A stretch of 59,744 bases of DNA from Thraustochytrium sp. TN22 (Eukaryota > Sar > Bigyra > Thraustochytrida > Thraustochytriidae): the NCBI GenBank assembly GCA_013306675.1, contig JABLUY010000222.1, forward strand, positions 1 through 59,744. The letters run 5' to 3'. Below, piece by piece: positions 1 through 53,150 of the stretch. The notes beneath the pieces were generated by a model that was not told where the DNA came from, did not search any database, and was given only the letters and a program-made list of their open reading frames with translations. Each line of letters begins with the position of its first letter. The stretch's first letter is position 1. A program made the position numbers and the translations under genes.

Positions 1-440
1 TGACTCCAAAAGGTCCGCACAAACGCCTCCTTTGAATACCACTGACTCGGTGTTATTCCAAATTGTTTTTTTTCCTGGATCCGCAAGCTCCGCTTCAACA
101 TGATGTTCAAGCCCGGGCCCCCCGCGGGTGGTTCGGTCGTGGTTCGGCAACTTCGGCGTGCCGGGCGTGGCGGACCGGGTGCGTCTTGCCTGGTCGATTC
201 TGTGGGTAAGGGGCCCCGAGTCAGCTAACTTACTGCTAGTGGCCAGCCTGAGCCAGCCACCCTTGCCAGTCTAGATTTGGCTGCTCGGACGGCGCTCGGT
301 CGATTTGGTTGCTTGGACGGCGCTCATTGGCTTCCTTCCTCGCGCAGCGCCAGAACCAAAGAGCCAACAGGATCCTGTCGCGGCGCGCTTCGCTGGTTGC
401 CTCTGCGTGCACTGACGCAGGTGCGGAGCAAAGTAACAGG
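1..440. other. 5' flank of first acyl-CoA synthetase
   Basis: No gene is supported here. The stretch holds a short T run near 63-72 and a GC-rich block around 112-135 that shares a 19-bp string with the region near 15871. An in-frame TTG at 309 extends the downstream ORF, but the extension has no counterpart in the paralogue, so I treat it as leader. Confidence 0.5.
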
Positions 441-2243
441 ATGGGGCTGCTGGACGAGGCGGAGAAGCTGGTGCTCGTGCCCGGCACGGAACTGGAGGTG
501 CGCGAAGAGGTGATCAAGTTCAAGGAGAATCACGCGCCGCACCACGCGGGATTCAAGGTGAAGGTGTTCCCGAATGCGCCGCAGGTGCTGCCGGACGTGT
601 ACAAGATCCCGGAGACCAGGGGCGTGCTGGACAATGAGTTTTTGGTGTTTGGTGACGAGCGGCTGACCTTCCGGCAGACCATGGATCAGGCGGCGGCGCT
701 GGGCCACGCGCTGGTGCACGAGTACGGCGTGGAGCACGGCGACCGCGTGACGGTGTGCTCGAAGAATCGCATCGAGTACTGTACGGCGCTTGTTGCCATC
801 ACGAGCGTGGGCGCCGTGGCCGTGCCCATGAACTCGCATTGGCGCACGCAGGAGCTCGAGTACGGCCTGGACAACTCCGGGTCCAAGGCCATCATCTGCG
901 ATGTGGATCGGTACCGCGACGTGATCCCGTTGCTGGGCAAGTTGAGCACGCTGGAGAGCGTGCTGGTTCTAAGCGGGCCCGGCACGGACCAGATCGAGGT
1001 GAGCGCCAAGGTCGCGCTCTACGACGAGGTGGTGCGGCCGCACGTGGGCAAGCCCATGCCGCCATTTCACGCCGACAAGGACGACAACGCCATGATCATG
1101 TACACCTCGGGCACGACGGGCCACCCCAAGGGCGTGGTCATGACGCACCGCGGCATCACGCACGCGCTCATGTGCGGCGTGGCCTACTTTTTGCGGCAGC
1201 AGGCGCTTGAGGCGCTGCGGAAGGGCGAGCCCTTTGACGTGACCTCGCTGCCGGCCTCTGACCCGGCCAGCAAGGTAGCGCTCTTGGCTGTGCCGCTCTT
1301 CCACGCCACCGGCACGCACGCGGTCTTCTTTCTCTCGCTCATCATTTGCCGCAAGATTGTCATCATGAACAAGTGGGTGCCGGCCGAGGCGCTCGGGCTC
1401 ATCGAGCGCGAGAAGATCACGCACTTCACGGGTGTGCCGACCATGACGCTGGACATGATGAACCACCCGGACTTTGCCACGTACGACACGAGCAGCCTGG
1501 AGGCCACGGGCGGCGGCGGCGCGGCGCCGCCCAGCACCATGGTGGCGGACATTGAGCGGAACTTTAGGAACGCCGGAGCCATGCAAGCCTTCGGTATGAC
1601 GGAGACCAACGCGCTCAGCTGCCTCAACGACGGCAGCACGTACCGCGAGCGGCCCACGAGCTGCGGTCACGCCACACCCACCACGGAGATCGCCGTCTGG
1701 GACGACGACGACAAGCCCGTGCCGCCCGGCACCAAGGGCAACGTGCTCATCCGCGGCGCTGGCATCCTCAAGGAATACTGGCGCAAGCCCGAGGCGACCG
1801 CCGACACCGTCACGGCTGACGGCTACATTCGCACGGGCGACATTGGCTACATGGACGACGAGGGCTACCTGTACGTTGGCGGGCGCATCAAGGAGATCAT
1901 CATTCGTGGCGGCGAGAACATCTCCTGCGTCGCCGTCGAGGATGGTGTCTACCACCACCCGGGCGTCGCCGAGGCGGCCGCTATTCCTGTCCCGCACCCG
2001 ACGCTGGGCGAGGAGGTTGGCATCGTCGTCTTTCCGAAGCGCGGCGCCGAGCTCACGCTCGAGGCCATCCGCGCCAAGTGCCAGCACCTTGCCCGCTTTG
2101 AGCAGCCCACGCACCTGTACATTTGGCCCGAGCTTCTCCCCAAGGGCGCCACCGGCAAGATCTTCAAGCGTGGCATTCGCGACGCCATCGAGCAGCAGGG
2201 CATTCTCTCCGAGCAGCAGAAGCCCCAGCCTGCCAAGCTCTAA
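441..2243 (+). CDS. Acyl-CoA synthetase 1 (AMP-binding, PTS1)
   Basis: ANL-superfamily acyl-CoA or 4-coumarate-CoA-ligase-like enzyme of 600 aa. It would activate a carboxylic acid to its acyl-AMP and then to the CoA thioester. Visible are the AMP-binding P-loop YTSGTTGHPKG at residues 221-231, a FGMTET motif, the hinge YIRTGD at 462-467, and the C-terminal A10 motif with catalytic Lys at 573 (ATGKIFKRG). The protein ends in AKL, a type 1 peroxisomal targeting signal, so action in the peroxisome is likely. ATG 441 was chosen because the next paralogue starts with the same MGLL and has the same length. A tandem paralogue follows on the same strand. The exact acid substrate cannot be read from sequence. 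Confidence 0.93.
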   Translation: MGLLDEAEKLVLVPGTELEVREEVIKFKENHAPHHAGFKVKVFPNAPQVLPDVYKIPETRGVLDNEFLVFGDERLTFRQTMDQAAALGHALVHEYGVEHGDRVTVCSKNRIEYCTALVAITSVGAVAVPMNSHWRTQELEYGLDNSGSKAIICDVDRYRDVIPLLGKLSTLESVLVLSGPGTDQIEVSAKVALYDEVVRPHVGKPMPPFHADKDDNAMIMYTSGTTGHPKGVVMTHRGITHALMCGVAYFLRQQALEALRKGEPFDVTSLPASDPASKVALLAVPLFHATGTHAVFFLSLIICRKIVIMNKWVPAEALGLIEREKITHFTGVPTMTLDMMNHPDFATYDTSSLEATGGGGAAPPSTMVADIERNFRNAGAMQAFGMTETNALSCLNDGSTYRERPTSCGHATPTTEIAVWDDDDKPVPPGTKGNVLIRGAGILKEYWRKPEATADTVTADGYIRTGDIGYMDDEGYLYVGGRIKEIIIRGGENISCVAVEDGVYHHPGVAEAAAIPVPHPTLGEEVGIVVFPKRGAELTLEAIRAKCQHLARFEQPTHLYIWPELLPKGATGKIFKRGIRDAIEQQGILSEQQKPQPAKL

Positions 2244-2274
2244 GTTAGGATAGCTAAGCCTTTAGAGACGGAAC

Positions 2275-2459
2275 AAGCTTCGCATCAGCTCGAGGCCATG
2301 CGCGCCCAGTGCCAGCACCTTGCCCGCTTCGAGCAGCCCATGCACACCTCGCCATTTGGCCCGCATTGGCCCGAGGAGCGTGGCATTCGCGACGCCGTCG
2401 AGCAGCAGGGCATTCTCTCCGAGCGCAGCACCAGCCCCAGCCTGCCAAGCTTCGCATCA
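2275..2459 (+). pseudogene. Partial duplicate of the acyl-CoA synthetase 1 tail
   Basis: Bases about 2288-2446 repeat gene 1 from about 2059 to its stop, with substitutions and an internal deletion that removes the A10 catalytic-lysine segment. The fragment is bracketed by a 13-bp direct repeat, aagcttcgcatca, at 2275-2287 and 2447-2459. It has no AMP-binding domain and cannot be a working enzyme. It may be a relic of unequal exchange or of slippage repair. Confidence 0.8.
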
Positions 2460-3358
2460 ACCATGGCAAGTTGGCACGACGGCCAGGTACGAGCGCTAGC
2501 TGGCCAAGCCCGCGGCCCTGGCCTATTCTTCCACGGCGGTAAGCTCCCTGGTCTCTCCAAGTCCGAGTCCGAGTCCGAGACTCCGAATCGGAGAAGGACT
2601 GCCAGTGCGAGTCCCACCGAGTCCGAGCCTCTGAGTCGTAACTAAGTTATGTCGAGTCATGCCTGGACCTGCCAGTGACTTGACTTGCTGTGAGTTCCAC
2701 TGCCGGGATCAAACTCGGACAAGTCACCAGACGACTCCCCTCGCAGTCCCCTGTCGCCGTCAGTCCGACAACCGGCAGCGCCCGATCGGACCGGCGGCGG
2801 CGCCCGCACCGGCCGGCCAGACCGGCGGGGCCAGGATCAGGCGCACAATCAGGCAGGATCAGGCTTCTCGCTCCGAGTCTGGCGGACCGGCGCCGGCGGC
2901 CGGACCTGCCGCCGCCCCGCGCGCGCAGTCCACCGCCAGGGCCCAGGCGGCACGCGCTGCGGCGGGGCTTGGTCCGCAGCGGACAAGCGAGAAGGCGCAT
3001 TGGCCCTGACGGACAGGAGCCGTGACGGAGCGCAGCGCAGCGCAGCAGAGGCCAGCCTGATCAGAAGAACTGACCGACAGGTGCTCTGCGTCCACGGCTC
3101 GCAGCTTGGTTTGGTTGCAGACTCGGACTGGCCATTGAGCTGGGTTGCGTCCAAGTCGCCGCTGTCGTGCAAGAAGCTGCTATCGTGCAAGTCGTGCAAG
3201 TCGCGCAAACGCACCAGGGCGGCGAGGCTAGCTAGAGGCAGCCAAACTGTAAACGGGGTGCGGCGGCGAGGCGAGGCGAGGCGAGGCGAGGCGAGGCGAC
3301 TCGGCGGCTCGGCGGCTCACGCCGCTCGTTGGCTGAAAGGCAAGCAGCAAGCAAGAGG
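2460..3358. other. Intergenic region with GGCGA microsatellite
   Basis: Spacer between synthetases 1 and 2. I see only low-complexity DNA: CCGAGT repeats near 2558-2580, a GTGCAAGTC cluster near 3164-3205, and a (GGCGA)n run at about 3264-3299, about 60 bp before the next start codon. It presumably includes the promoter of synthetase 2. The short open frames here show no family signature. Confidence 0.5.
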
Positions 3359-5161
3359 ATGGGCCTGCTCGAGGAGGCGAATAAGCTGGTGCTAGTGCCT
3401 GGCACGCAGCTGGAGGTGCGCGAGGAGGTGATCAGTTTCAAGGAGCAGCACGCGCCGCACCATGCGGGCATCAAGGTCAAGGTCTTCCCGAACGGGCCGC
3501 AGATGCTGACGGACATTTACAAGGTTCCGGAGGCCAAGGACGCGCTGGATAACGATTTCCTCGTGCACAACGATGCGCGGCTGACGTTCCGGCAGACGTT
3601 CGAGCAGGCGGCGGCGCTTGGCGACCTTCTGGTGAACAAGTATGGCGTGCAGTTCGGCGACCGCGTGACGATTTGCGCCAAGAACCGCATCGAGTACTGC
3701 GTGGCCATCATTGCCATCACGAGCGTGGGCGCGGTGGTCGTGCCCATGAACTCGCACTGGAAGACGCGGGAGCTCGAGTACGGCCTGGACAACTCGGGCA
3801 CCAAGGTGATGATCTGCGACGTGGAGCGCTTCCGCGACACGGAGCCGCTGCTGGACAAGCTCACGGAGCTGGAGCACGTGCTAGTTCTGAGCGGGCCTGG
3901 CGCGGACCAGCTCAAGCCGCACGCAAAGGTGGCGTCGTACGACGAGATGATGGCGCCGCACGTGGGCAAGCCTATGCCGCCATCCAAGGCCCAGAAGGAT
4001 GACAACGCCATGCTCATGTATACGTCTGGGACCACGGGCCACCCCAAGGGTGTGGTCATGACTCACCGTGGCATCGTGCACGCGCTCACTTGCGCGCTCG
4101 CGCATGGCCTGCGGCAGATGGCGCTGGCAGCACTCCAGAAGGGCGAGAAGTTCAGCCTGGCCGACTTGCCACAGACGGACCCGACGCTGGCGGCGGCGCT
4201 GCTCGCGGTGCCGCTCTTCCACGCCACCGCCACGCACGCCGTCTTTTTCGTGTCCATCCTCCTCGCCCGCAAGCTCGTCATCATGGACAAGTGGGTCGTG
4301 GAGAACGCGCTCGCGCTCATTGAGCGCGAGAAGATCACCGCCTTCACGGGCGTGCCCACCATGACGCTCGACATGATGAACCACCCGAACTTTGCCAAGT
4401 ACGACACGAGCAGCCTGCTGGCCACGGGCGGCGGCGGCGCCGCGCCGCCTAGCACCATGGTGGCGGACATTGACAAGAACTTCAAGCAGGCCGCTCCGAG
4501 CCAGGGCTTTGGCATGACTGAGTCCAATGCCTTCACATGCCTTAACGACGGCGACTCCTACCGCGAGCGGCCCACCAGCTGCGGCCGCGCGGTGCCCACT
4601 GTTGAGGTTGCCGTCTGGGACGACGACGACAAGCCCGTGCCGCCCGGTGTCAAGGGCAACGTGCTCATCCGCGGCGCCTCCATCCTCAAGGAGTACTGGC
4701 GCAAGCCCGAGGCCACGGCGGACACGGTCACGGCCGACGGCTACCTCCGCACTGGTGACGTCGGCCACCTTGACGAGGACGGCTTTTTGTTCCTCGGCGG
4801 CCGCACCAAGGAGATTATCATTCGCGGCGGTGAGAACATCTCCTGCGTTGCCGTCGAGGATGGTGTCTACCAGCATCCTGGTGTCGCTGAGGCCGCGGCC
4901 ATCCCGGTGCCGCACCCGACACTCGGCGAGGAGGTCGGCATCGTGGTCTTCCCCAAGAACGGCGCCAAGCTTACGCTTGAGGAAATCCGCGCCAAGTGCC
5001 AGCATCTCGCGCGCTTCGAGCATCCCACGCACTTGTACATCTGGTCGGAGCAGCTGCCTAAGGGCCCGACTGGCAAGATCTTCAAGCGTGGCATCCGCGA
5101 CACGATCGAGAAGGAGAACATTCTCTCTGAGCAGCAGAAGCAGCCCAAGTCCAAGCTCTAA
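3359..5161 (+). CDS. Acyl-CoA synthetase 2 (AMP-binding, PTS1)
   Basis: Closest paralogue of synthetase 1, also exactly 600 aa and collinear throughout. It has the P-loop YTSGTTGHPKG, the acyl-AMP motif GFGMTES, the hinge YLRTGD, and the A10 lysine in PTGKIFKRG. The C-terminus is SKL, a canonical peroxisomal signal. Start ATG 3359 gives MGLLEEANKL, matching the paralogue. The product should activate a fatty or aromatic acid for peroxisomal metabolism. The TES in place of TET in the motif is a mild change seen in the family. The 3' end of the gene is duplicated immediately downstream. Confidence 0.93.
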   Translation: MGLLEEANKLVLVPGTQLEVREEVISFKEQHAPHHAGIKVKVFPNGPQMLTDIYKVPEAKDALDNDFLVHNDARLTFRQTFEQAAALGDLLVNKYGVQFGDRVTICAKNRIEYCVAIIAITSVGAVVVPMNSHWKTRELEYGLDNSGTKVMICDVERFRDTEPLLDKLTELEHVLVLSGPGADQLKPHAKVASYDEMMAPHVGKPMPPSKAQKDDNAMLMYTSGTTGHPKGVVMTHRGIVHALTCALAHGLRQMALAALQKGEKFSLADLPQTDPTLAAALLAVPLFHATATHAVFFVSILLARKLVIMDKWVVENALALIEREKITAFTGVPTMTLDMMNHPNFAKYDTSSLLATGGGGAAPPSTMVADIDKNFKQAAPSQGFGMTESNAFTCLNDGDSYRERPTSCGRAVPTVEVAVWDDDDKPVPPGVKGNVLIRGASILKEYWRKPEATADTVTADGYLRTGDVGHLDEDGFLFLGGRTKEIIIRGGENISCVAVEDGVYQHPGVAEAAAIPVPHPTLGEEVGIVVFPKNGAKLTLEEIRAKCQHLARFEHPTHLYIWSEQLPKGPTGKIFKRGIRDTIEKENILSEQQKQPKSKL

Positions 5162-5374
5162 CTTTCATAACCAATTGAACACGCGTCTCTGCCAGTGAGA
5201 ACTTGATCAATCAACGAGTCAATACGGCAGCGTGGCATCCGCGACACGATCGAGAAGGAGAACATTCTCTCTGAGCAGCAGAAGCAGCCCAAGTCCAAGC
5301 TCTAACTTTCATAACCAATGGAACACGCGTCTCTGCCAGTGAGAACTTGATCAATCAACGAGTCAAAACGGCAG
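5087..5374 (+). repeat. 144-bp tandem duplication of CDS tail plus 3' UTR
   Basis: Copy one, 5087-5230, covers the last 25 codons of synthetase 2 and 69 bp of its 3' flank. Copy two, 5231-5374, repeats it almost exactly; I noticed only two substitutions (accaattgaac versus accaatggaac, and gtcaatacgg versus gtcaaaacgg). The near identity points to a recent event. The second copy lies after the true stop and is not part of the protein. Confidence 0.9.
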
Positions 5375-5410
5375 GAACGCTGGGCCGGATGCCTTTGAGC
5401 AGGCCTGGCA

Positions 5411-5710
5411 CTTGATCAAGAAGCAAAGAAGCAAAGCGCCAAGGACGCTTGGGCTGGTCGCCCTGGCAACTTGAACAAGAAGCAAAGACGCAAAGCGCCA
5501 AGGACGCTTGGGCTGGTCACCCTGGCAACTTGAACAAAAAGCAAAGACGCAAAGCGCCAAGGACGCTTGGGCTGGTCGCCCTGGTAACTTGAACAAGAAG
5601 CAAACAAGCAAAGCGCCAAGGACGCGTGGGCTGGTCGCCCTGGCAACTTGAACAAGAAGCAAAGAAGCAAAGCACCAAGGACGCTTGGGCTGGTCGCCCT
5701 GGACATCCTT
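5411..5710. repeat. 59-bp minisatellite, about five copies
   Basis: The string caaagcgcc (caaagcacc in the last copy) recurs at 5432, 5491, 5550, 5609 and 5668, giving a constant period of 59 bp. Units contain GGGCTGGTCGCCCTGGCAAC and CTTGAACAAGAAGCAAAG. Because 59 is not a multiple of three, no reading frame keeps a repeated peptide, so the minus-strand open frames here are treated as chance. The array lies between two convergent synthetase genes. Confidence 0.9.
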
Positions 5711-5949
5711 TGCTCGCTCAAACTCGCTCGCTGTGTGAAAAAACCCTTTGCTCGCTCAAAGTCGCTCGCTGTATGCAACTGAGACGAAAAATGGCGAAGG
5801 TTTGCGTCAGGTTTGCGGGTCTCTCTCTCTCTCTGTCAACTTGAACAAGAAGCTTTTCAAAGCAAAAAGGCAGGGATCTCAGGCTTGGCCAGCCGCCTCT
5901 CATGTTGGCCTTGTCTGCGTTCATGTAAGTTATTTTGAAACTCACTTAC

Positions 5950-7752
5950 TTAGAGCTTGCTGGCAGGCGCCGCCTCGTCGCGCACCTTGCCCTCCTTGAT
6001 GAGACGGAGGATCTCGCGCTTCTGGATCTTGCCCGTGTCGCCGCGCGGAAGCTGGTCGCCGTCCCAGATGTAGAGATGAGTCGGCATCTGGTAGCGCGCA
6101 AGGTCGCTGCAGGTGGCGCGGATGTCGTCGAGCGTGACCTTGGTGTCGCCGCGGAGCAGAACCGCAACACCGACCTCCTCGCCAAGCGTGGGGTGCGGCA
6201 CGGGAATGGCAGCGACCTCAGCGACCTCGGGGTGGTGGTAGACGGCGTTCTCGACGACGACACAGGAGATGTTCTCGCCACCGCGGATGATGATCTCCTT
6301 GCTGCGGCCCCGCAGCTGCAGGTAGCCCTCCTCGTCGATGACGCCAACGTCGCCAGTGCGGAACCAGCCTTCGGGCGTGATCTCCTTGGCCGTGGCGTCC
6401 GGGCGGCCCCAGTACTCCTTGAGCATGCCGGCGCCGCGAATGACGAGGTCGCCCTCGGTGCCCGGAGGCACGGGCTGGTCCTTGGCATCCCAGATGGCGA
6501 TCTGGGTGGCTGCGATGACCTTGCCGCAGCTCTCCGGCTTGGCGCGGTACAGATTGCCTTCGTTGAGCGTAGCGATGCCGTTGGTCTCGGTCATGCCCCA
6601 GGCCTGGAGCGGCGAGGCCTGATGGAAGTTGCGGTCCACGTCGCTGGCCATGGTCTTGGGCGGCGCAGCGCCGCCACCGCCGACGGATTTCATGGACGAG
6701 GTGTCGCGCTTCTTGAAGTCCGGGTGATTCATCATGTCAAGCACCATGGTGGGAACGCCGGTGAAATTGGTGATCTTCTCGCGCTCCACGATCTCGAGCG
6801 CGCGGCTCGCATCCCACTTGCTCATCAGGACGATCTTGCGACAGTTGATGATCGACAGCAGGCCCACGCAGTGGTGGCCCGTGACGTGGAAGAGCGGTAC
6901 GCCCAGCAGAAAGGAAGAGAGCGACGGGTCCTCCGGCGGCGGCAGCTCCACGCCGGCGCGGCGCGCCTCCAGCGTCTTCTCGTACGTCATGGTGGCCGCC
7001 GCCGCCGTGAGCGCGTGCGCGATGCTACGGTGCGTCAGCACCACGCCCTTGGGGTGGCCGGTCGTCCCCGACGTGTACATGATCATGGCGTTGTCGTCCT
7101 TGGCCCCCGGGAAGGCCGGCATGGCCTCGCCCGCATGCGCGCGAAGCACCGCATCGTACGAGGTCAGCTTCTCGTGCGGCGCCACGCGGTCCGCTCCCGG
7201 TCCGCTAAAGAGCACAACCTTGTGCAGGGTGCCGATCTTGTCCAGGAGCGGCTGCAGCTGCACGAAGCGGTCGTAGTCGCACAGGACCACCTTGGACTCC
7301 GAGTTCTCCAGGCCGTACTCGAGCTCCTTCGTCTTCCAGTAAGAGTTCATCGGCACCGAGACGGCGCCCACCGAGGTGCACGCGATCAGCACGATAAGGT
7401 ACTCGCACCGGTTCTTGGACAGCGTGATCACGCGGTCGCCCCGCCCCACGCCCATGTCCTTGACCAGCGCGTTGCCCAGCGCCGCCGCCTCCGCGAACAC
7501 CTCGCGGAACGTCATGCGCCGCTCCTCGTCCACCAGGAACTCATTATCCAGCACTCCGCGCTGCGTCGGGATGGCGTAGATATCCACCAGCGTCTGCAGC
7601 CCGTTCGGGAACACCTCGTACTTGCACCCCTTGTGGTGCGCCGCCTCGCCCGTCGGATGCGCCACCACCTCCTCGCTGATCTCGAACATGCCGCCCTTGG
7701 CGAAGACTTCCGCGCGCACCTTTTCCACCAGCTCCTGCTCCTGCGGCGCCAT
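5950..7752 (-). CDS. Acyl-CoA synthetase 3 (AMP-binding, PTS1)
   Basis: Third member of the cluster, on the opposite strand and convergent with synthetase 2. From ATG 7752 it is again exactly 600 aa; an upstream GTG in frame would add eight residues but is not needed. It has YTSGTTGHPKG, the motif GMTET, the hinge WFRTGD and the A10 segment DTGKIQKREI. It ends in SKL, so peroxisomal import is expected. It is more divergent from genes 1 and 2 than they are from each other, especially in the C-terminal domain. It probably accepts a different acid, but substrate is not readable. Confidence 0.92.
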   Translation of the reverse strand: MAPQEQELVEKVRAEVFAKGGMFEISEEVVAHPTGEAAHHKGCKYEVFPNGLQTLVDIYAIPTQRGVLDNEFLVDEERRMTFREVFAEAAALGNALVKDMGVGRGDRVITLSKNRCEYLIVLIACTSVGAVSVPMNSYWKTKELEYGLENSESKVVLCDYDRFVQLQPLLDKIGTLHKVVLFSGPGADRVAPHEKLTSYDAVLRAHAGEAMPAFPGAKDDNAMIMYTSGTTGHPKGVVLTHRSIAHALTAAAATMTYEKTLEARRAGVELPPPEDPSLSSFLLGVPLFHVTGHHCVGLLSIINCRKIVLMSKWDASRALEIVEREKITNFTGVPTMVLDMMNHPDFKKRDTSSMKSVGGGGAAPPKTMASDVDRNFHQASPLQAWGMTETNGIATLNEGNLYRAKPESCGKVIAATQIAIWDAKDQPVPPGTEGDLVIRGAGMLKEYWGRPDATAKEITPEGWFRTGDVGVIDEEGYLQLRGRSKEIIIRGGENISCVVVENAVYHHPEVAEVAAIPVPHPTLGEEVGVAVLLRGDTKVTLDDIRATCSDLARYQMPTHLYIWDGDQLPRGDTGKIQKREILRLIKEGKVRDEAAPASKL

Positions 7753-8426
7753 GATGGACGACGTGACGTGAGCCACGCTTTCTCGCGCTCAACGCCGCGC
7801 TGGCTGGCTGGCTGTCTGTCTGTCTGTCAGGTGCCACGAGAGCGGAGCGGCGATGCTGCGCTGCACCGCGCCGCGCCGCGCTGCGCTGCGCTACGATCAG
7901 CGATCAGCGATCGGCGATCTACGGTCTGCGATGTGATGCAGTTCGGCTGCGATGCAGTCAGTCAGTCAGTCCGCTCGACGGTCCAGCATTGGCCGCGCCC
8001 GCGTGCGCCGTCTGTCGTCGACCACGGCGAGTGCTCGGAGTTGCTAAGTTAGCTAACTAGCTAGCTAGGCGGGAATCGGCGAGAACCGCGAGAAGTTGAA
8101 GCTCGACGTGTACGTGGCGTGCACGTGGCGCTGGCAGTACCGCATTGCAGTCACCTTTAGTAGGAGTAGCGAGGCTGATCTGGCCGCGGTGCACTCACCG
8201 TCAAGTCCAACAAGAACGGCGGACCAAGCCTTGAGCCTGAGGTCCGAGTCGAGAGCGCGGCCTCGTGCGTGCTCCAGGCAGGCAGGCAGGCAGGCAGGCA
8301 GCGGCAGGCCACGATCCTGGCGTTCGCTCACAATTGTCTGTCTTCGCTCAGGCTCAGTGCCCGGTTGGGTGTTGACTCGGAAAATTGCTTGGTTTGGGTC
8401 ATTTTCTTGAGCTCGCGGCGGGTGTC
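7753..8426. other. Spacer between synthetases 3 and 4
   Basis: Contains the promoter side of synthetase 3 and the 3' flank of synthetase 4. Visible elements are CTGT and GCGCTGC runs near 7805-7890, a palindromic TAGC tract at about 8049-8068, and a (GGCA)n tract at about 8277-8300. No gene is supported. Confidence 0.5.
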
Positions 8427-20869: not shown

Positions 20870-21430
20870 AAGAAGAGAAGACAAAGACATCTTGCAAGCT
20901 GCACCTGCATGGCCATACCGTAGCAGACCTTGTGAAGAAGAAGAGGAAGACGTCTTGCAAGCTGCACCTGCGCCAACCTGTACAGCATCAGGTTCAATTT
21001 AGCGCAGCAGACCTTGCAAGTTGAGCGAAATTGAAGACGAAGAGAACGTCATCTTGCAAGCTGCACCTGCACCAAGCTGCACGGCATCAGATTTAATTTA
21101 GCGCAGCAGACCTTGCAAGTTGAGCGAAGTTGAAGACGAAGAGAACGTCATCATGCAAGCTGCACCTGCACCAACCTGCACGGCATCAGATTTAATTTAG
21201 CGCAGCAGACCTTGCAAGTTGAGCGAAGTTGAAGACGAAGAGACAGCCATCTTGCAAGCTGCACCTGCACCAACCTGCACGGCATCAGATTTAATTTAGC
21301 GCAGCAGACCTTGCAAGTTGAGCGAAATTGAAGACGAAGAGAACGTCATCTTGCAAGCTGCACCTGCACCAACGCACCAACCAGGCTGTATGGCATCACA
21401 TTCTGGCGCTGCAAACCTTGAAGTTGCGCA
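20870..21430. repeat. 99-bp minisatellite downstream of DLD
   Basis: The block cttgcaagctgcacctg starts at 20891, 20954, 21053, 21152 (with catgcaag), 21251 and 21350. The first interval is 63 bp and the next four are exactly 99 bp. Each full unit contains atttaatttagcgcagcag (or a variant) and gttgaagacgaagagaacgt. Since 99 is divisible by three, frames can run through it, but no protein family is recognisable. Confidence 0.9.
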
Positions 21431-21654
21431 AGCTTGGTTTGTGTTGCTTGCCCTGACGGCGTTCAAGTCCATGGTTGACGGAGGCATTGGGACAGCGCCA
21501 ACGCAAGGATCAGGGAGGCAGAGGAGCGGGAGGAATGCGCACGACAAGCTCATCGAGAGCAAATAAAGCAGCGTGGAGTAAGTGGGCTGGTCACGCCAAT
21601 CATGGGGGTTTACCTCGAATGAGGCCGACGCCGACCGGCAAGCGAGCGTGAAAG

Positions 21655-21755
21655 ATGCTGAGCGTGAAAGATGCTGTTGCTTCGGTGCTCGCCTGGATGA
21701 TGCTGTTGATTCGGTGCTCGCCTGGATGATGCTGTTGATTCGGTGCTCGCCTCGA
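21655..21755. repeat. 29-bp direct repeat, about three copies
   Basis: The string cggtgctcgcctgg or its start recurs at 21683, 21712 and 21741, separated by gatgatgctgttgatt. The array is preceded by two copies of agcgtgaaagatgctg (about 21645-21676). It lies just beyond the stop codon of the large nuclease/transposase gene. Confidence 0.8.
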
Positions 21756-21790: not shown

Positions 21791-24700
21791 TCAGATGAGG
21801 TGGTGCAAGAAGGCTGGCAGATTGGCGCGCTTCTCGCTGTCAGGAGCTGCGGAGCTAGTGTCCAGAAGCGCGAGCCACCGTTCCATCCTCAGGGTATATG
21901 CTGAGCGCAAGAGGTATAAGCTCGCATGACAGACGTCGTATCGGTCGTACATGTCGGTGGTTGTGATCTGGCCCGCACGATCGCGACGTTTGCAGCTGGG
22001 GGCGCCGACAAAGTTAGTGAGCCCGAGAAGGAAATACCATGCATGGTTGGCGCGCTGCATGTTCTGCTTGTTCACACAGTAAGCGAGGAATTTAAAAGCC
22101 TTGATATCCCCAAACCTGTGTTCCACGGAAGCACGCTTGGCCGAGTTCTCCCGGTTCTGGTTCGTCTCATCCGGCAGAAAAGGATCCTTCACCTTGCCAA
22201 ACGCGATCTTGTGTGCTGGCGATGCGACGTTGTTCAAGTTTGGAAGCCGGAGGCCGAGGTTCGACCCGCCCTTGTCGTACAGCAGGCGAAGATGCGGTTT
22301 GAGCTTCCTGAGGCGCTCGGAGGCGACAGCCTCGATGAGACTCGCCTCGCTTGCTCGACCCAGAACGAGTGGGCTTGCGGTGTGCACCATGCCGTTGGGG
22401 AGCGCGAGGATGAGACCGCGCAACGCCGGGCCTCCGACTTTGTCCGAGTAGAGCTCAATGTCAAAGTTGCCGTTGATGTTGGCGCAGGAAAAGTCGCAGC
22501 AGCCGCCCACGCAAAGGATGTCGGTGAGGTCGCCCTCCTTGAATGAGTCCGGATTTACGTCCAAGAGGCACTCTGGGAGATAGTCGAAGCTGGTAAGTAG
22601 CTGTCCCACGACCCCTAGGACAGGGAAGAAGCGCTTGAGACGAGTTTGCACCGGCTTGGGCGACGTAAATCCTTCCAGGGCCGCAAGCGCCGTATTGGTC
22701 AAGCCAAGGCGCATGACCATCATGCAGTAGATAATCGACCGCGGGTTGGCCAGAAAGTCGGGGAATAGCTCCTTCATGACTGCGCGTACGTCGTCGGGAG
22801 ACTCGAGCACGGGCATCTCACCCTTTCCATCGATTCCGTCTTCGAGAACACGCCGCCAGAGCTCCTCCGAGGTTGGATGAAAGACCGAATGGAAGAAGCG
22901 CACGAAGTACTCGCTCGAGGGAAATCCGAGGATGGAGTTGCAGCGCGGATCGCGCTTGATCTCAGGCTTCTTGGCAAGCCAGGCAATGATGTAGCGCTGG
23001 AGCTTACGCAAGACATGCACCTGCAATTCGAACATGGCCTTGGACCACGCAAATGGGCCATCGAGTTGCCGCTGGGCAAAGCCCGCCTCAGCTATAGCGC
23101 CGGCACTAGTATGCGGAGGTTGGCATTGCCGGCGAAGGAACACATCCACCTGTCTCATCAGCTTGGAACCATCGCTGACGGTGCTGTCGAGACTCATCAG
23201 GGCCGCGACTGCATCTTGCGTCTGCCGTGCTAGGCGCGCTCTTTTGCGCGGCCTCTCCTTCTGATGGCTTTGCCGCTCTTGTTGCTCCCCGGGTGTTGGT
23301 ATGATGAGGGCATCTTCATCGTCGGAGTCTACTTCCGGCGACCCACTCCGTTCCGACTCGGTGAGCGCGTCAGCCGAGGCTTTCCAGGCCCGCCTAGAGG
23401 TCTCAGTCTTTCGGCTGTACGAGTCTGTGGTCTGGATTGTGTCAATCAAGCGTCTCACGTCTGGCGGGAAGTGATCGTGGATGACCTTGGCGAAGTCTTC
23501 GGGAGGCAGGTCAGCCGTCCCCCACGCTCCTCGGCAGCGCTGGAGAATTGCAACGAGAAGCACCACCGCAAATTGATGGCTGCAAAGCGAGGTCTGCTGC
23601 CAGCATGTACACCGTGAGTATGGGTAGGGTAGCGGCACCAGCGCGCCCGAGTCCTCACGCATAGCGAATAAGACGACTGCCGCTTGCTGCGTGCTCTTCA
23701 TGCTTGAGTGGCACCGAATGTGCACCACCATGGGTGCTACGTCGTCACGAAAAGCAGGCGGTGCCTCCGTGAACCAGGCTGCCGCGCCTCGTGCAAAGAC
23801 CTTGATCGTGTCGAGCACCAGGTGGCCTCCGAAGATGAGACGCATCCCACGATCCTTCGTCGTTGGGAAACGGGGCGCGAAGTCATCGAGAGCTTGAGCG
23901 TCGATTCTGGCAACGCGATTCTCCGCGAGCTCAACCAGCCCTGCGAGTCCAACTGGAAGAGCGTTCTTCTGCACCACGTATTGGAGAGCGACGGGAGTAT
24001 AGGAATCGAAGGCCAGCAGAGACGGCATGCAGATGCAAAGGTGCCTGGCCTCCCGGCCGTGGATCTCGAAGAACTTCTTCAGGGTGTCTCGCGCCGTCAA
24101 CACAGAGCACGACGAGTCGAGCGGGAATCCGCGCCACGACAAGAAGTTCACAATCTCGCTCTGCGTCCAGGCCGCCAAGGGCTTATTCGCTCCCGAATTC
24201 GCGAGCAGGGCGATGTCCGGAGCCCTTGGAGGATCGAAGCGTTCCGCGTCCGTGGCCCTATGCGAATACGAGTACACTCCCTCGGTGCAGCACTTGAACG
24301 CGTGATCGGTGTCGACCTTCAAGTAGGTGAGGACCTGCGTGGTGCGCGTGACCGCCGTCATGGGCAAAGCGAGGCTCACGTGGCTCAGGCAGACCAGGCG
24401 GCAGCTCCATGGCGAAGCAGGGCCCAGCACCGAGGACGGAGTGGACCGCTGCGGCCGCTGAGGTTCGTCCTGGACCACGCGGACGACCACAGGGTAGGAC
24501 TCGAAGACGACCATGGAGTGGGCGAGCTGTTCGACCAGGAGTGACTCGTCGCTCCAGAGCGGGTCCGGATGTGAACGCTGACCGATGATCTCGCGCCACT
24601 GATCGACGCATTGGGAGAGCAGGTCGTGGCGGCAATCGTAAAAGTCGAGACTGTCACCAACGCTCTCCCCGATTGTGTTGGATACAACTTCCGAGTATAC

Positions 24701-25969
24701 TTGCACGCACTCCGTCAAGGCTTGTTGTGCCGTCCCCCCATCTGGGCCTCCCTTACCCATTTTCACACCGGGGCTCACGTCGTTGCCTAAGAAGGCCGCA
24801 AGAAGGCGGAAGTCCTCATGAGAAAACTTGCTCATGCCGACATTCTGTAGGACGACGTTCGTGATCTTGTACGCTTCGGGCAAGTGCGAGTTCCCACGAT
24901 ACTTGAAGCCGAGCAAGACATGCTCTTTGTCCTTGGCGAGAATGTACAGGTCGGAGTCGAGGCCGACAACGAAGACCTCGCTATCGGGCTCAGCGGCTGC
25001 CAGTACGTCACGAGTGGCCACGGCCTGGGCATCTGCTTCGTAGAGCGAGCCAACGAAAACGAGTCCGTCGGAGCTCCATTCCTGCGTGGCCCGACTGAAG
25101 AACTCGCGGAGAGTGTGCGTGTTCCAGCGCACCGCTTGAGCCTTCTGCGTCTCCGAGATGCCCGCCAGGAGGCCTCGCACGAGCTGGATGGCTGCAGCCT
25201 CGCCGGCCGAAGTCTCCTCCAGTGCCGCCCACCCAGTGTCCCGCAGCGAACTCCAGACCACGCGCGCCCACGTGAACGGCCGAAGCTCCATTGCGCGAAG
25301 CGCTAGGGCGACCCAGGCCTGGTCAGTGAGCGTCTCGCCGCCACCTCCGGACAGGTCGGCCGGCCAGTTCCAGTGATCGTCGAACCAGGTCGGCCCGGTC
25401 TGGCGCTGCTCCTCGACACGGCGTCCGGCCGCTTCGAGCCACGCGTCCAGGACATGCACGCCACCGGCCTCGGCGAGGCAAGCCTCCAGACAGGTCTCCA
25501 GGCCTTTCACGCCAATGTAGTCCTCGCCCCTGGAGCTGGCACATGCCGTCCTGACCATGACGCGAATCTTGTCGACAGCCAGGCGAAGGAGTCTCAACCC
25601 AGACCTCCGCGTGAGGACCGTGGCGACAGCCCAACGACCGAGAGCACGATGCGCAATACGCGCACGGTCCGCCGTCTCCTTCGACTTGGGTGTCCACTTG
25701 TCATTTGCTCCGTCCATGACGATGAACAGCTTCCCGCAGCACTTCTTCAGCTGCCTCACCACGTCCATCAGGCGCCTCACGACAGCAGGAGAGAAGCTAC
25801 CTGGGCTCTGCCACTGCTCGCGCACGGCCTCCGTGCTCTTGCAGGCCTCGAAGGCGGCGCCAAAGTCGAAGACGATGCGCACCTTCTCTCTGGGCTTTGT
25901 CCAGAACGTCGGCAGTGGCGCTACCTGTGCATACTTCCCGATGTACTCCTCGAAGCGCAGAACGCCCAT
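21791..25969 (-). CDS. FEN1/XPG-like nuclease - SWIM - DDE transposase fusion
   Basis: Intact single-frame ORF of 1392 aa from ATG 25969. Residues 1-420 form a 5'-nuclease (FEN1/XPG) domain. It starts with Met-Gly and has Asp35 (VFDFG), Asp86 (VMDG), Glu311 and Asp313 (YEADAQ), Asp338 and Asp340 (GLDSD), and Asp397 in LGNDVSPG followed by a GKGG turn. These match all seven acids of the FEN1 active site. About 225 residues separate the second acid from the third, far more than in FEN1. Residues about 600-635 may be SAP-like. A SWIM zinc finger (CTCW...LCSH) lies at 787-798, and a basic patch, likely nuclear localisation, at about 905-912. Residues about 1050-1325 are a Harbinger/IS5-type DDE domain: helix-turn-helix near 1085-1115, Asp1159, Asp1232 (LLYDKGG) and Glu1283 (VEHRFG). 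It is probably a mobile-element protein; the terminal repeats were not found. The in-frame codons upstream of 25969 look like leader. Confidence 0.85.
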   Translation of the reverse strand: MGVLRFEEYIGKYAQVAPLPTFWTKPREKVRIVFDFGAAFEACKSTEAVREQWQSPGSFSPAVVRRLMDVVRQLKKCCGKLFIVMDGANDKWTPKSKETADRARIAHRALGRWAVATVLTRRSGLRLLRLAVDKIRVMVRTACASSRGEDYIGVKGLETCLEACLAEAGGVHVLDAWLEAAGRRVEEQRQTGPTWFDDHWNWPADLSGGGGETLTDQAWVALALRAMELRPFTWARVVWSSLRDTGWAALEETSAGEAAAIQLVRGLLAGISETQKAQAVRWNTHTLREFFSRATQEWSSDGLVFVGSLYEADAQAVATRDVLAAAEPDSEVFVVGLDSDLYILAKDKEHVLLGFKYRGNSHLPEAYKITNVVLQNVGMSKFSHEDFRLLAAFLGNDVSPGVKMGKGGPDGGTAQQALTECVQVYSEVVSNTIGESVGDSLDFYDCRHDLLSQCVDQWREIIGQRSHPDPLWSDESLLVEQLAHSMVVFESYPVVVRVVQDEPQRPQRSTPSSVLGPASPWSCRLVCLSHVSLALPMTAVTRTTQVLTYLKVDTDHAFKCCTEGVYSYSHRATDAERFDPPRAPDIALLANSGANKPLAAWTQSEIVNFLSWRGFPLDSSCSVLTARDTLKKFFEIHGREARHLCICMPSLLAFDSYTPVALQYVVQKNALPVGLAGLVELAENRVARIDAQALDDFAPRFPTTKDRGMRLIFGGHLVLDTIKVFARGAAAWFTEAPPAFRDDVAPMVVHIRCHSSMKSTQQAAVVLFAMREDSGALVPLPYPYSRCTCWQQTSLCSHQFAVVLLVAILQRCRGAWGTADLPPEDFAKVIHDHFPPDVRRLIDTIQTTDSYSRKTETSRRAWKASADALTESERSGSPEVDSDDEDALIIPTPGEQQERQSHQKERPRKRARLARQTQDAVAALMSLDSTVSDGSKLMRQVDVFLRRQCQPPHTSAGAIAEAGFAQRQLDGPFAWSKAMFELQVHVLRKLQRYIIAWLAKKPEIKRDPRCNSILGFPSSEYFVRFFHSVFHPTSEELWRRVLEDGIDGKGEMPVLESPDDVRAVMKELFPDFLANPRSIIYCMMVMRLGLTNTALAALEGFTSPKPVQTRLKRFFPVLGVVGQLLTSFDYLPECLLDVNPDSFKEGDLTDILCVGGCCDFSCANINGNFDIELYSDKVGGPALRGLILALPNGMVHTASPLVLGRASEASLIEAVASERLRKLKPHLRLLYDKGGSNLGLRLPNLNNVASPAHKIAFGKVKDPFLPDETNQNRENSAKRASVEHRFGDIKAFKFLAYCVNKQNMQRANHAWYFLLGLTNFVGAPSCKRRDRAGQITTTDMYDRYDVCHASLYLLRSAYTLRMERWLALLDTSSAAPDSEKRANLPAFLHHLI

Positions 25970-26004
25970 GGTGGTCGGCTCCGCACGGCCGCCACGCCGC
26001 TCTG

Positions 26005-26064: not shown

Positions 26065-26221
26065 AGCGTACTAGGCCTACTACCATCCCTCGCGCTGATC
26101 CGAGGCTCGTGTGTTCATTCATGGGAATATCAAGTCCAAGGTCAGGTCAAAAAGATCATGCTCGTCCTCTAGCTAGCTAGCCTGGCAACAGACAGCAAGC
26201 GCGACCGTGACCACAGAGCTC

Positions 26222-26653
26222 ATGTCGGCCGATGCGTGTGGCAAGAGCGGCTGCGCGGGCGAGCGACTGTCGAGCGAGGCGGTGAGCGCGCGCCTCGCGG
26301 CGCTGTGCCCATCGTGGCAGGTGGCTGCCTCGGGCAAGGCCATCTCGCGCAGCTTCGTCGCCAAGAACTTCGTGCGCGCCGTTGACTGGATCAATGCGGT
26401 TGCGGACCAGGCCGAGGCGGCCAAGCATCATCCGGACTTGCACCTCACGGACTACCGATGCGTCCAGGTTGTGCTCAGCACGCACTCCGCGGGCGGGCTC
26501 ACGGAGGCCGACTTCGACCTTGCCGCCAAGCTGGACGCCTTGCCCATCGAGTACAGCCCCAAGTTTCTGCGCGAGAACCCTAATGTGCGAGCAGGCCGTC
26601 CCGAGCCTACAGCACCACCAGTGCAAGCACCCGCTGACTCTGAGCTCACGTAG
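26222..26653 (+). CDS. PCBD1: Pterin-4a-carbinolamine dehydratase
   Basis: Dehydratase that regenerates quinonoid dihydrobiopterin from the 4a-hydroxy product of aromatic amino acid hydroxylases. The 143-aa product from ATG 26222 carries the family core: a helix with SFVAKNFVRAVDW, then VADQAEAAKHHPDL with the paired active-site histidines, and VVLSTHSAGGLTEADFDLA with the third histidine. The C-terminus is a Pro/Ala-rich tail of about 25 residues beyond the domain. An in-frame GTG at 26207 is rejected as start. The gene is divergent from the large mobile-element ORF, about 250 bp away. Confidence 0.93.
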   Translation: MSADACGKSGCAGERLSSEAVSARLAALCPSWQVAASGKAISRSFVAKNFVRAVDWINAVADQAEAAKHHPDLHLTDYRCVQVVLSTHSAGGLTEADFDLAAKLDALPIEYSPKFLRENPNVRAGRPEPTAPPVQAPADSELT

Positions 26654-50771: not shown

Positions 50772-53150
50772 ATGACGGGCGCGCCGCAGCAGACGCCGTC
50801 GGCGCTCGCGCGGCTCGCGCCCGAGGCCAAGCTGGGGGGGATGGTGCGAACCGCGGACGGCCAGGCACCAGGCGGCCAGGCACCATCGAGGGACGCTAGC
50901 GTCGCCATCGGTGGTACGGAGAAGTCGGTCAAGCTCGAGGCCACGCCGCGAAAGCAGCAAGGCCAGCAAACGCAAGACGCCGCAGCAGCCCTCGCCATGG
51001 CCGTCGCGATGCAGCAGCAGCAGCAGCAGCAACATAAAAAGGCCGTCACCCCGATGCAGGCCTCCGCCAGCGCCGCCGCCACAGCCGCGGACCTGGGCAA
51101 CACCACGCCCTCCTTCGCCGCAGCCGGCGCATCCAAGAAGCGCCCGCGCAGCGAACCGCGAGGCCGCTCACAAGTTGAAGACGAAGAGGAAGATGCCGAG
51201 GAGGACGACGACGAGGAGGGCGACGACGACGACGAGGAAGACGACGACGAGGAGGAGGCCGCCGACGGCAAGACGCCCGACCGCAGCGGCAGCAGCGGCG
51301 ACGGCAAGAAGAAAAAGAAAAAGAACAAGGACAAGGCGCGCCGCAAGCTCACTTGGAGCGCCGACGAGGACCGCCTCCTCCGCGACACCCTCGAGCAATT
51401 CAACGTCAAGGTCGCCGAGAACGGCCACAGCATCCTCGAGGGCTCCTGGTCCGACATTGCCTCGCGCATCCCCGGCCGCAGCGCCAAGCAGTGCCGCGAG
51501 CGGTGGTGCTACAACCTCTGCCCCACCATCAAGCGCGACGCCTGGTCGCTCGACGAGGACGTCCTCCTCCTCGAAACGCAGCGCCGCTATGGCAACCACT
51601 GGTCGCTCATCGCGCGCCAGATCCCCGGCCGCACCGGCGACAACGTCAAGATCCGCTTCAAGTCCATACTGCGCGCGGCGCGCCGCCTTTGGACCCCGGA
51701 CGAGGACCGCCGCCTCATTAACCTCCACCGCTACGTCGGCCCCAACTGGGAGTACATCGCCCAGAAGCTCGGCAGCCGCACGCGCAACGCAGCGCGCAAC
51801 CGCTACCAGCTCCTCACCGACGGCTCCGCGCTGCGCGCCCCTTCGCCCGGCACGCCCGAGCAGGTGCTCGTCGACGACCGCTACGAGCAGCTCACGCGCT
51901 ACGTCCTCGGCCTTTGCAGGCCCAAGGCTGTACTCGGCAAGCGCGACCTCGCCGACGCCGCGGCCGAAGCCGGGGACCCCTCTGCCGCTGCCGCGCTCGA
52001 CTCGGCCGACCTCCTCTCGCCCAACCCGGCCAAGCTTCGCAAGCACGAGCCCAACGCGTCTTCTGCGGACGGCGCTTCCCTTGCCGCGGTCGGCCCCGGC
52101 GCTTCCTTCGAGTCCCCCAAGGGCACCGAGGTTCAGTACCTGCTCCCGCGCGCCAACGCCGGCCTGCCGCCCCCGCCGCCTGATGTCGCTGCGCTCGGCC
52201 AGCTGCATCAGCAGCAGCAGCAGCAGCAGCCGCAGCAGCAGCCTTCGCTCGCGGATATGCTGCGCATGGCCACCTACAACTCTCGCCCGCCTGCGTCTTC
52301 TGCGCCTCCTGCACCTGCCCCGCCGCTTGCCGCTGCTGCTTCTTCCTCGTCCTCGTCCGCACCACCTTCGACTTCGGAGCTCCAGCTTCTGCGCGCCCTC
52401 GCCACCACGCTCGGAGTCCTTGGCCCCAACCAGCAGCAGCAGCCTCTGCAGCAGCAGCAGCAGCAGCAGCAGCCGTCCAACCAGAACATCATGGACATGC
52501 TGCGCTACGTAGCGGCCGAGATGTCAGCGCCTCCGCAGCCTTCCTATCCTTACCCCCAGCAGCAGCAGCAGCAGGACTCGCGCAGGCCCGACATGGCCAG
52601 CTCCTCGGCACACCTCGACATTGCGCGTCTCATCTCCTCGCTGCAGCAGCAGCCCCAGGGTGCCAACACCGCACAGCTCCATCAGCTTCAGTACATGCAA
52701 CAGCAGCAACAGCAGCAGCAGCAGCAAGACCTCATGCTGCAGCAGCTCCTGCAGCAGCAGCAGCAGCAGCAGCAGCAGCCGACGTCGAGCCACTTCTCTG
52801 CCAACAAGCAGCAGCTGCCGTACCCGTCTTCAGCGCTTCTCAACAGCTTTGCCGGCGCACCCGACTCCTCGTACGGGCCCAACGGCAACAACTCGCTACA
52901 GAATGTGCTGGCGCTGGCCGACTCGCTGCGCACCAATGGCGCCCCGTCCTCCTCGCGCCAGCAGTACTACCCGCAGCAGCAGCAGCAGCGGCAGCAACCT
53001 TCGTCTGCAGCTTCCTTTCTGCCGCCGCCTGCCGCCGTGTTGCCGGCGCCGGCGTCCCCAGCATGGGATCCTCGGCGGCCTTCCGATGAGGCCTCCGGTG
53101 GAAACTCCTCCCGCGCAGGCGACAAGCGCTCGGTTGCGCACCTCCTCTGA
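50772..53150 (+). CDS. Three-repeat MYB transcription factor 2, polyQ-rich
   Basis: A 792-aa paralogue of the upstream MYB protein. Residues 1-190 are low-complexity with a polyQ tract, an acidic Asp/Glu block (about 136-158) and a Lys-rich nuclear-localisation-type block just before the MYB domain. The three repeats span about 192-350. Repeat 1 has LTWSADED, then GSW and ERW, with the same long first spacing as its paralogue. The third aromatic is Phe (KIRF) in repeat 2 and Tyr (RNRY) in repeat 3. Shared strings such as RSAKQCRERW and VKIRFKSILRA show recent common origin. The C-terminal 440 residues carry at least eight CAG-coded Gln tracts. It is probably a nuclear regulator; targets are unknown. 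Confidence 0.93.
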   Translation: MTGAPQQTPSALARLAPEAKLGGMVRTADGQAPGGQAPSRDASVAIGGTEKSVKLEATPRKQQGQQTQDAAAALAMAVAMQQQQQQQHKKAVTPMQASASAAATAADLGNTTPSFAAAGASKKRPRSEPRGRSQVEDEEEDAEEDDDEEGDDDDEEDDDEEEAADGKTPDRSGSSGDGKKKKKKNKDKARRKLTWSADEDRLLRDTLEQFNVKVAENGHSILEGSWSDIASRIPGRSAKQCRERWCYNLCPTIKRDAWSLDEDVLLLETQRRYGNHWSLIARQIPGRTGDNVKIRFKSILRAARRLWTPDEDRRLINLHRYVGPNWEYIAQKLGSRTRNAARNRYQLLTDGSALRAPSPGTPEQVLVDDRYEQLTRYVLGLCRPKAVLGKRDLADAAAEAGDPSAAAALDSADLLSPNPAKLRKHEPNASSADGASLAAVGPGASFESPKGTEVQYLLPRANAGLPPPPPDVAALGQLHQQQQQQQPQQQPSLADMLRMATYNSRPPASSAPPAPAPPLAAAASSSSSSAPPSTSELQLLRALATTLGVLGPNQQQQPLQQQQQQQQPSNQNIMDMLRYVAAEMSAPPQPSYPYPQQQQQQDSRRPDMASSSAHLDIARLISSLQQQPQGANTAQLHQLQYMQQQQQQQQQQDLMLQQLLQQQQQQQQQPTSSHFSANKQQLPYPSSALLNSFAGAPDSSYGPNGNNSLQNVLALADSLRTNGAPSSSRQQYYPQQQQQRQQPSSAASFLPPPAAVLPAPASPAWDPRRPSDEASGGNSSRAGDKRSVAHLL

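Follow-up and report, generated by a model that had tools for sequence, protein, structure and literature searches.

A predicted fusion of an XPG/FEN1-type nuclease with a DDE transposase in Thraustochytrium sp. TN22, probably a truncated relative of ISL2EU-like transposons

What kind of gene would encode, in a single piece, a nuclease of the FEN1/XPG type, a SWIM zinc finger and a DDE transposase? Such a gene was proposed in contig JABLUY010000222.1 of the thraustochytrid Thraustochytrium sp. TN22 (assembly GCA_013306675.1), whose 59,744 nucleotides make up the window analysed here. The initial annotation, made from the sequence of this window, had suggested that one protein could both excise an element and trim the flaps or hairpins of transposition intermediates, and had seen in the intact frame either recent activity or a domesticated gene. 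The comparison with the rest of the genome leaves little doubt that the gene belongs to a transposon of the PHIS type. More precisely, it is probably a truncated copy, still intact in frame, of the transposase gene from a PHIS-type DNA transposon that has two genes and is related to ISL2EU.

Homologues were searched in the genome of the strain itself (37.9 Mb, 453 contigs). Relatives of the fused protein were present in contigs C277 and C404 (87% identity), in C27, where the copy was diverged, and in C413, C150 and C66, where the copies were decayed or partial. The C277 and C404 copies belong to the same element, called here element 1, which measured exactly 6675 bp and was 100% identical at the two sites, on opposite strands and between unrelated flanks. 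Element 1 starts with ATGGACCCTGCGCCG and finishes with the exact reverse complement, forming a perfect 15-bp terminal inverted repeat (TIR; GGACCCTGCGCCG, beginning with GG). Because the 6675 bp are identical at unrelated sites and are bounded by perfect terminal repeats, element 1 is a DNA transposon that has recently moved. Multi-copy insertions with aligned boundaries, the check that had been set beforehand, were thus found. The terminal 15-mer occurred five times in the genome, at the four ends in C277 and C404 and once in C252, where the sequence running from the 15-mer to the fetched contig end, 52 bases in all, agreed with the end of element 1.

Two convergent genes were recognised in element 1, the fused transposase gene and an opposite-strand open reading frame (ORF) at element positions 4479-5777. 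The latter encodes a companion protein of 407 amino acids (aa) that contains an HFRPECF motif and, on visual inspection, a probable coiled coil. The companion was THAP-like by motif only: it matched neither the Pfam THAP model nor the Myb model, and the THAP search of the genome gave no matches, the controls being equally silent. The C27 element, 7025 bp long between GGAGCTGAGTCC repeats that also begin with GG, showed the same two-gene order, with a fused gene of 1471 aa and an opposite-strand companion with an HFQPDSF motif. It could be suspected that the fused frame is an artefact of assembly or annotation joining adjacent genes. This explanation is scarcely conceivable and was rejected, since the independent copies in C277, C404 and the diverged C27 carry the same fusion without interruption.

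Short stretches with 66-77% similarity to the element's 3' half were also observed at C427:17361-17990, C255:191306-191891, C79:70597-70808, C439:67810-68077 and C55:165217-165428, on contigs where the fused protein had no match. They may be remnants of the element or related non-autonomous elements. Viral contigs, prokaryotic genome contigs and phages yielded no relatives of the fused protein, a result of little weight because these collections are unlikely to hold eukaryotic transposons.

The uninterrupted frame of the window gene was borne out, on the minus strand, a detail missing from the initial annotation. Read from 25969 down to 21791, it encodes 1392 residues followed by a stop, with the N-terminus MGVLRF. 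The stop-to-stop frame has its first ATG further upstream, at 26122, and would from there give 1443 aa. Position 25969 is the better start because the homology to the mobile copies stops at 26003 and because MGV stands at the matching place in the window, C277 and C27 proteins. At the given base composition, the probability of 1392 sense codons by chance was extremely low (ln P = -43.7), which together with the conserved residues in the homologues rules out a chance open frame. The 14 residues named in the initial annotation (acids, zinc ligands and DDE residues) were at their announced positions, and all were invariant when the window, C277 and C27 proteins were aligned, the C27 protein being 38% identical to that of the window.

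Between the window and C277 copies, the divergence was 0.21 at synonymous sites and 0.069 at nonsynonymous sites, a ratio of nonsynonymous to synonymous substitution (dN/dS) of 0.32. The ratio was between 0.24 and 0.42 in each of five regions (0.29 in the nuclease, 0.24 around the SWIM motif, 0.32 in the DDE region). The DNA alignment of the two genes contained three gaps, of 15, 9 and 6 bases, all corresponding to whole codons. The invariant residues, the low dN/dS and the whole-codon gaps together indicate that the whole fusion is selected as a single protein.

The N-terminal domain is likely, on the evidence of motif, spacing and weak profile similarity, to be an XPG domain. Its Met-Gly start and seven acids had the order and spacing seen in two host proteins found by XPG_I, which we take to be FEN1-like and EXO1-like, and in the XPG protein of a sister transposon, element 2, described below. 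The acids matching D35 and D86 occupied positions 34 and 92 in the FEN1-like protein and positions 30 and 78 in the EXO1-like protein; according to the initial annotation, these two acids fall almost exactly at the positions known from FEN1. A YEAD motif was identical in the window protein and the EXO1-like protein. The profile-profile comparison (hhalign) of the domain with these three proteins gave a score of 24.7, which none of 120 shuffles reached (mean 15.3, standard deviation 2.5, maximum 21.9), and placed E311, D313, D338, D340 and D397 in register with the acidic motifs of the enzymes. We favour the XPG assignment because the order and spacing of the motifs and the weak profile match are joined by an XPG gene in element 2 that Pfam does recognise.

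Several observations weigh against it. D35 and D86 were outside the stretch aligned by hhalign, the E-values were just 0.024-0.037 (0.037 for the XPG regions of the fused family and of element 2), and the search of the PDB profiles with the alignment of the N-terminal domain returned nothing at E-values up to 10. The Pfam XPG and SWIM models matched none of the window, C277 and C27 fused proteins. In the window protein DDE_Tnp_4 alone was recognised, at 35.1 bits for a cut-off of 24.8, so that the profile searches suggested in the initial annotation succeeded for the DDE domain but not for the other two. Two differences from known enzymes were also apparent: the second and third acids are separated by 225 residues in the window domain but by 80 in the host FEN1-like protein, and the window domain lies below Pfam detection when set beside FEN1, EXO1 and XPG (Rad2), in contrast to the nuclease gene of element 2, which matches both XPG_N and XPG_I. 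A domain derived from XPG and now catalytically dead, kept as a structural module for DNA binding or dimerisation, would agree with a sequence so far from the catalytic enzymes and escaping Pfam. This is quite improbable, as the seven acids are all invariant at 38% overall identity and as the dN/dS of the nuclease region is 0.29. A domain unrelated to XPG, with motifs arising by coincidence in a GC-rich frame, is highly improbable. It would account for the lack of a significant match in any single database, but it has against it the MG start, the FEN1-like and EXO1-like arrangement of the seven acids, their conservation in the homologues, the result of the 120 shuffles, and the XPG gene of element 2, which Pfam recognises.

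The SWIM finger (CxCx6CxH, residues 787-798) stood at the level of the motif, with C787, C789, C796 and H798 invariant, but not at the level of the Pfam profile. A genome-wide Pfam SWIM search, with controls positive in 12 of 14 genomes, missed the fused protein and gave three weak matches elsewhere, none of them over the cut-off. The comparison of the SWIM region with the SWIM-motif protein of element 2 was not significant, 10 of 60 shuffles scoring as high, and also counts against a SWIM domain. The DDE_Tnp_4 match was at 35-39 bits in the window, C277 and C27 proteins and at 116 bits in element 2. Between the fused family and element 2, hhalign gave an E-value of 5.9e-5 for the DDE domain and of 0.0023 for the HFRPExF regions, with 0 of 60 shuffles as high in both cases.

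Element 2 emerged from the inventory of DDE_Tnp_4 matches in the genome, at least 18 in number. Four of them were the fused proteins of the window, C277, C404 and C27, and five belonged to element 2 (C88, C177, C398, C425 and C267). In all five element-2 copies an XPG_I match in an open frame was located about 2 kb from the DDE match, the one in C425 falling below the Pfam cut-off. The nine other matches listed had no XPG_I match on the same contig, with the exception of a second copy in C398, a contig that also carries an element-2 copy about 100 kb away. These nine matches do not demonstrate the absence of a nuclease, because the XPG_I model also misses the fused family. In C88, element 2 measured 5378 bp between AGATGAGATGCGC repeats and contained three genes. 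The transposase, a frame of 756 aa, matched HTH_Tnp_4 (46 bits) and DDE_Tnp_4 (116 bits) and had no THAP match. The SWIM-motif gene, a frame of 383 codons (371 aa from the first start codon) with CECPAARADSGCVH and the motif CxCx8CxH, had no Pfam match. The nuclease matched Pfam XPG_N (57 bits) and XPG_I (31 bits), and in the PDB it matched Rad2 (best E-value 1.1e-11), EXO1 and FEN1.

As judged from these predicted genes, the modules of the fused family occur as separate genes within one transposon. Separate full-length genes in relatives, together with distinct mRNAs, had been named in the initial annotation as an argument against the fusion; such genes do exist in element 2, yet they lie in a single transposon, which suggests that the parts work together and does not argue against a fusion. 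The central idea, one fused protein acting in transposition, was strengthened: the protein is the transposase of a real multi-copy transposon, and the association of nuclease and DDE recurs in a second family. No relatives of the element-2 XPG protein were found in viral contigs. A lone relative of the element-2 XPG gene, in an open frame, was present at C73:6258 with two likely catalytic acids changed (D78 to A, D159 to N); its contig had no DDE_Tnp_4 match among the matches listed.

The dinucleotide AT adjoined the TIR at 13 of 15 ends (5/5 for element 1, 2/2 for C27 and 6/8 for element 2). The C252 end was located with a pattern already containing AT, and without it AT was found at 12 of 14 ends. 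Element 2 in C88 showed the arrangement AAT[element]ATT, identical to the A|AT|T context known from published ISL2EU. Some ends of element 1 and C27 lacked the outer A or T. Against an AT target stand the two ends of the C267 copy of element 2, which lack AT, and the possibility that in element 1 and C27 the AT is part of the TIR instead. The empty site of C27 (C442), which is one-sided, with a single AT and a match of just 4 bp on the left, supports an AT duplication only in part. Empty sites spanning the junction were obtained for C267 only, five being fetched out of 14 listed flank matches. These five paralogous sites have GATT or AGTT at the insertion point, and the C267 copy lacks these bases and shows no AT duplication, which argues against target duplication at this copy. 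The C267 junction may be what trimming of the target strand would leave, although a single event proves nothing. A target duplication of 7 bp or more was rejected, the AGCCTGC repeat seen at C277 being absent at C404.

According to passages of PMC4482050, ISL2EU, a group of the PHIS superfamily found in animals only, has a first ORF with THAP, HTH and DDE domains and a second gene encoding a YqaJ exonuclease. The same passages describe a 2-bp AT target duplication in the A|AT|T context, TIRs starting with GG, and extra genes of PHIS transposons whose functions are unknown. The elements described here resemble ISL2EU by their DDE_Tnp_4 transposase (with HTH_Tnp_4 in element 2), their AT borders and their nuclease partner and, for element 1 and C27, by GG-starting TIRs and a two-ORF layout. 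They differ in that the partner nuclease is of the XPG/FEN1 type and not YqaJ, in that nuclease and DDE protein form one fusion in the window family, whose THAP-like part is encoded by the other gene, and in that element 2 has three genes and TIRs starting with AG. The genome gave a single YqaJ match, in a 713-codon frame at C78:69347, on a contig without a DDE_Tnp_4 match among those listed, and a canonical ISL2EU with YqaJ was therefore rejected. As AT borders and GG termini (not in element 2) were found and a YqaJ gene beside the transposase was not, we consider these elements ISL2EU-like and do not file them as ISL2EU.

Passages of PMC4482050 and PMC9179366 attribute TWA target duplications and a Myb/SANT second gene to PIF/Harbinger, and the absence of duplication and mostly one gene to Spy; no nuclease partner is named in these passages for either group. 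The borders observed here are AT and not TWA, and the companion of element 1 has no Myb match, unlike what is described for PIF/Harbinger. PIF/Harbinger and Spy are filed in the same DDE_Tnp_4 catalytic domain family. Academ elements of Repbase combine XPG with another DDE superfamily and 3-4 bp duplications, which would lower the claim to novelty; nothing here ties the DDE domain of the window to Academ. A precedent for nuclease and transposase in one element is provided by KolobokP, described in passages of PMC9587614 as a DNA transposon with a DDD/E transposase and a His-Me finger homing endonuclease, thus of a different transposase superfamily and a different nuclease fold. Our literature search, which extended neither to Repbase Reports nor to most subscription journals, found no description of an XPG-type nuclease with a DDE transposase. 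The term XPG had 0 occurrences in the main text of three PHIS papers (PMC4482050, PMC9179366 and PMC12730594). The initial annotation did not know this combination as a described transposon class; a nuclease beside a PHIS-type transposase was already known from ISL2EU with YqaJ.

The features of the window copy are collected in Table 1. Its homology to element 1 was limited to element bases 277-4758. Upstream of 26003 the matches to element bases 1-277 were short and at chance level only, and no inverted-repeat pair of at least 13/14 was found between the flanks. A match to the terminal 15-mer with three mismatches (26298-26312, minus strand) lies near the expected end, but inside the coding region of a pterin dehydratase; three such matches were seen in the window for five expected by chance. 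The word intact used in the initial annotation therefore applies to the open frame but not to the element, which lacks ends that can be recognised and retains only a small remnant of its companion gene. The window copy is probably no longer mobile by itself.

Table 1. Coordinates in the window of the fused gene, its regions and its borders.
Feature	Position	Strand	Details and evidence
Fused transposase gene (XPG-type nuclease, linker, SWIM-motif region, DDE_Tnp_4)	21791..25969	minus	1392 codons; translation, homologues
Likely XPG/FEN1-type nuclease region, residues 1-420; D35 D86 E311 D313 D338 D340 D397	24710..25969	minus	invariance, spacing, hhalign with shuffles
SWIM-type zinc motif C787-x-C789-x6-C796-x-H798	23576..23611	minus	invariant in 3 homologues; motif-level only
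DDE catalytic region D1159 D1232 E1283 (PIF/Harbinger-ISL2EU type)	22010..22522	minus	Pfam DDE_Tnp_4 35.1 bits; hhalign
Point where homology to the mobile element stops upstream (element base 277)	26003		no 5' terminal repeat recognised further upstream
Companion gene (HFRPExF/coiled-coil protein), remaining piece of its 3' end	21474..21694	plus	72-73% DNA identity to element 4538-4758, inside ORF 4479-5777

Host genes such as RAG1 and HARBI1 probably arose from transposons, and the window copy might likewise be a domesticated gene that lost its ends and kept the nuclease-transposase for a host function. Recognisable terminal repeats were found on neither side, and the copy is inserted between a dihydrolipoamide-dehydrogenase-type gene and a pterin-4a-carbinolamine dehydratase gene, with the latter in head-to-head orientation. 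The 1392-codon frame remained open, although neutral evolution after the split from C277, along a branch of 0.107 substitutions per site, would be expected to produce about 14 stops, and the dN/dS was 0.32. The same dN/dS would, however, be expected from divergence inside an active lineage followed by a recent truncation. When the changes were polarised, the window branch showed 40 amino-acid changes against 17 on the C277 branch, and 28 synonymous changes against 20 (Fisher p 0.22), thus no sign of tighter constraint. Domestication is the less likely reading, and we retain that of a truncated transposase gene.

Between the truncated transposon and the dihydrolipoamide-dehydrogenase-type gene a 99-bp tandem repeat of 4.5 copies was observed (20933-21373), unmatched in the full element. 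Elsewhere in the window, uninterrupted frames at 312-2240 (plus), 5950-7776 (minus) and 50772-53147 (plus) correspond to two AMP-binding genes of the acyl-CoA synthetase type and a protein with three Myb repeats.

DDE enzymes cut and join DNA, and XPG enzymes cut 5' flaps or degrade DNA from 5' ends. YqaJ is an exonuclease of another fold than XPG. We propose a model in which the DDE domain would cut and join the ends of the element, using an AT target, while the HFRPExF/coiled-coil companion and the SWIM motif would bind DNA. The XPG-type domain would be a 5' flap endonuclease or a 5'-3' exonuclease acting on the 5' strands made by transposition. It could trim flaps at the new insertion, or it could resect the donor break, leading to repair by copying. 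In this model it would fill the slot held by the YqaJ exonuclease in the published ISL2EU. That one slot is occupied by either of two unrelated nucleases suggests a step shared by these transposons, most simply the processing of 5' strands at the target or at the donor break. We put forward this role of the XPG-type domain tentatively. That a single protein would excise the element and then trim the products, as first imagined, is plausible. A wider scheme can be drawn, in which a 5'-strand nuclease would be required for the transposition of AT-target PHIS elements, provided by YqaJ in animals or by XPG/FEN1, separate or fused, the C267 junction would result from over-trimming, and the window copy would be nearing domestication. 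Taken as a whole this scheme is rather doubtful.

Two families of one genome carry another type of nuclease where ISL2EU has YqaJ, one of them as part of the transposase itself, and this suggests that such elements have the need for a nuclease in common. As element 1 is compact and apparently recently mobile, with two copies identical over 6675 bp, this need would be testable through the seven acids of the XPG-type domain.

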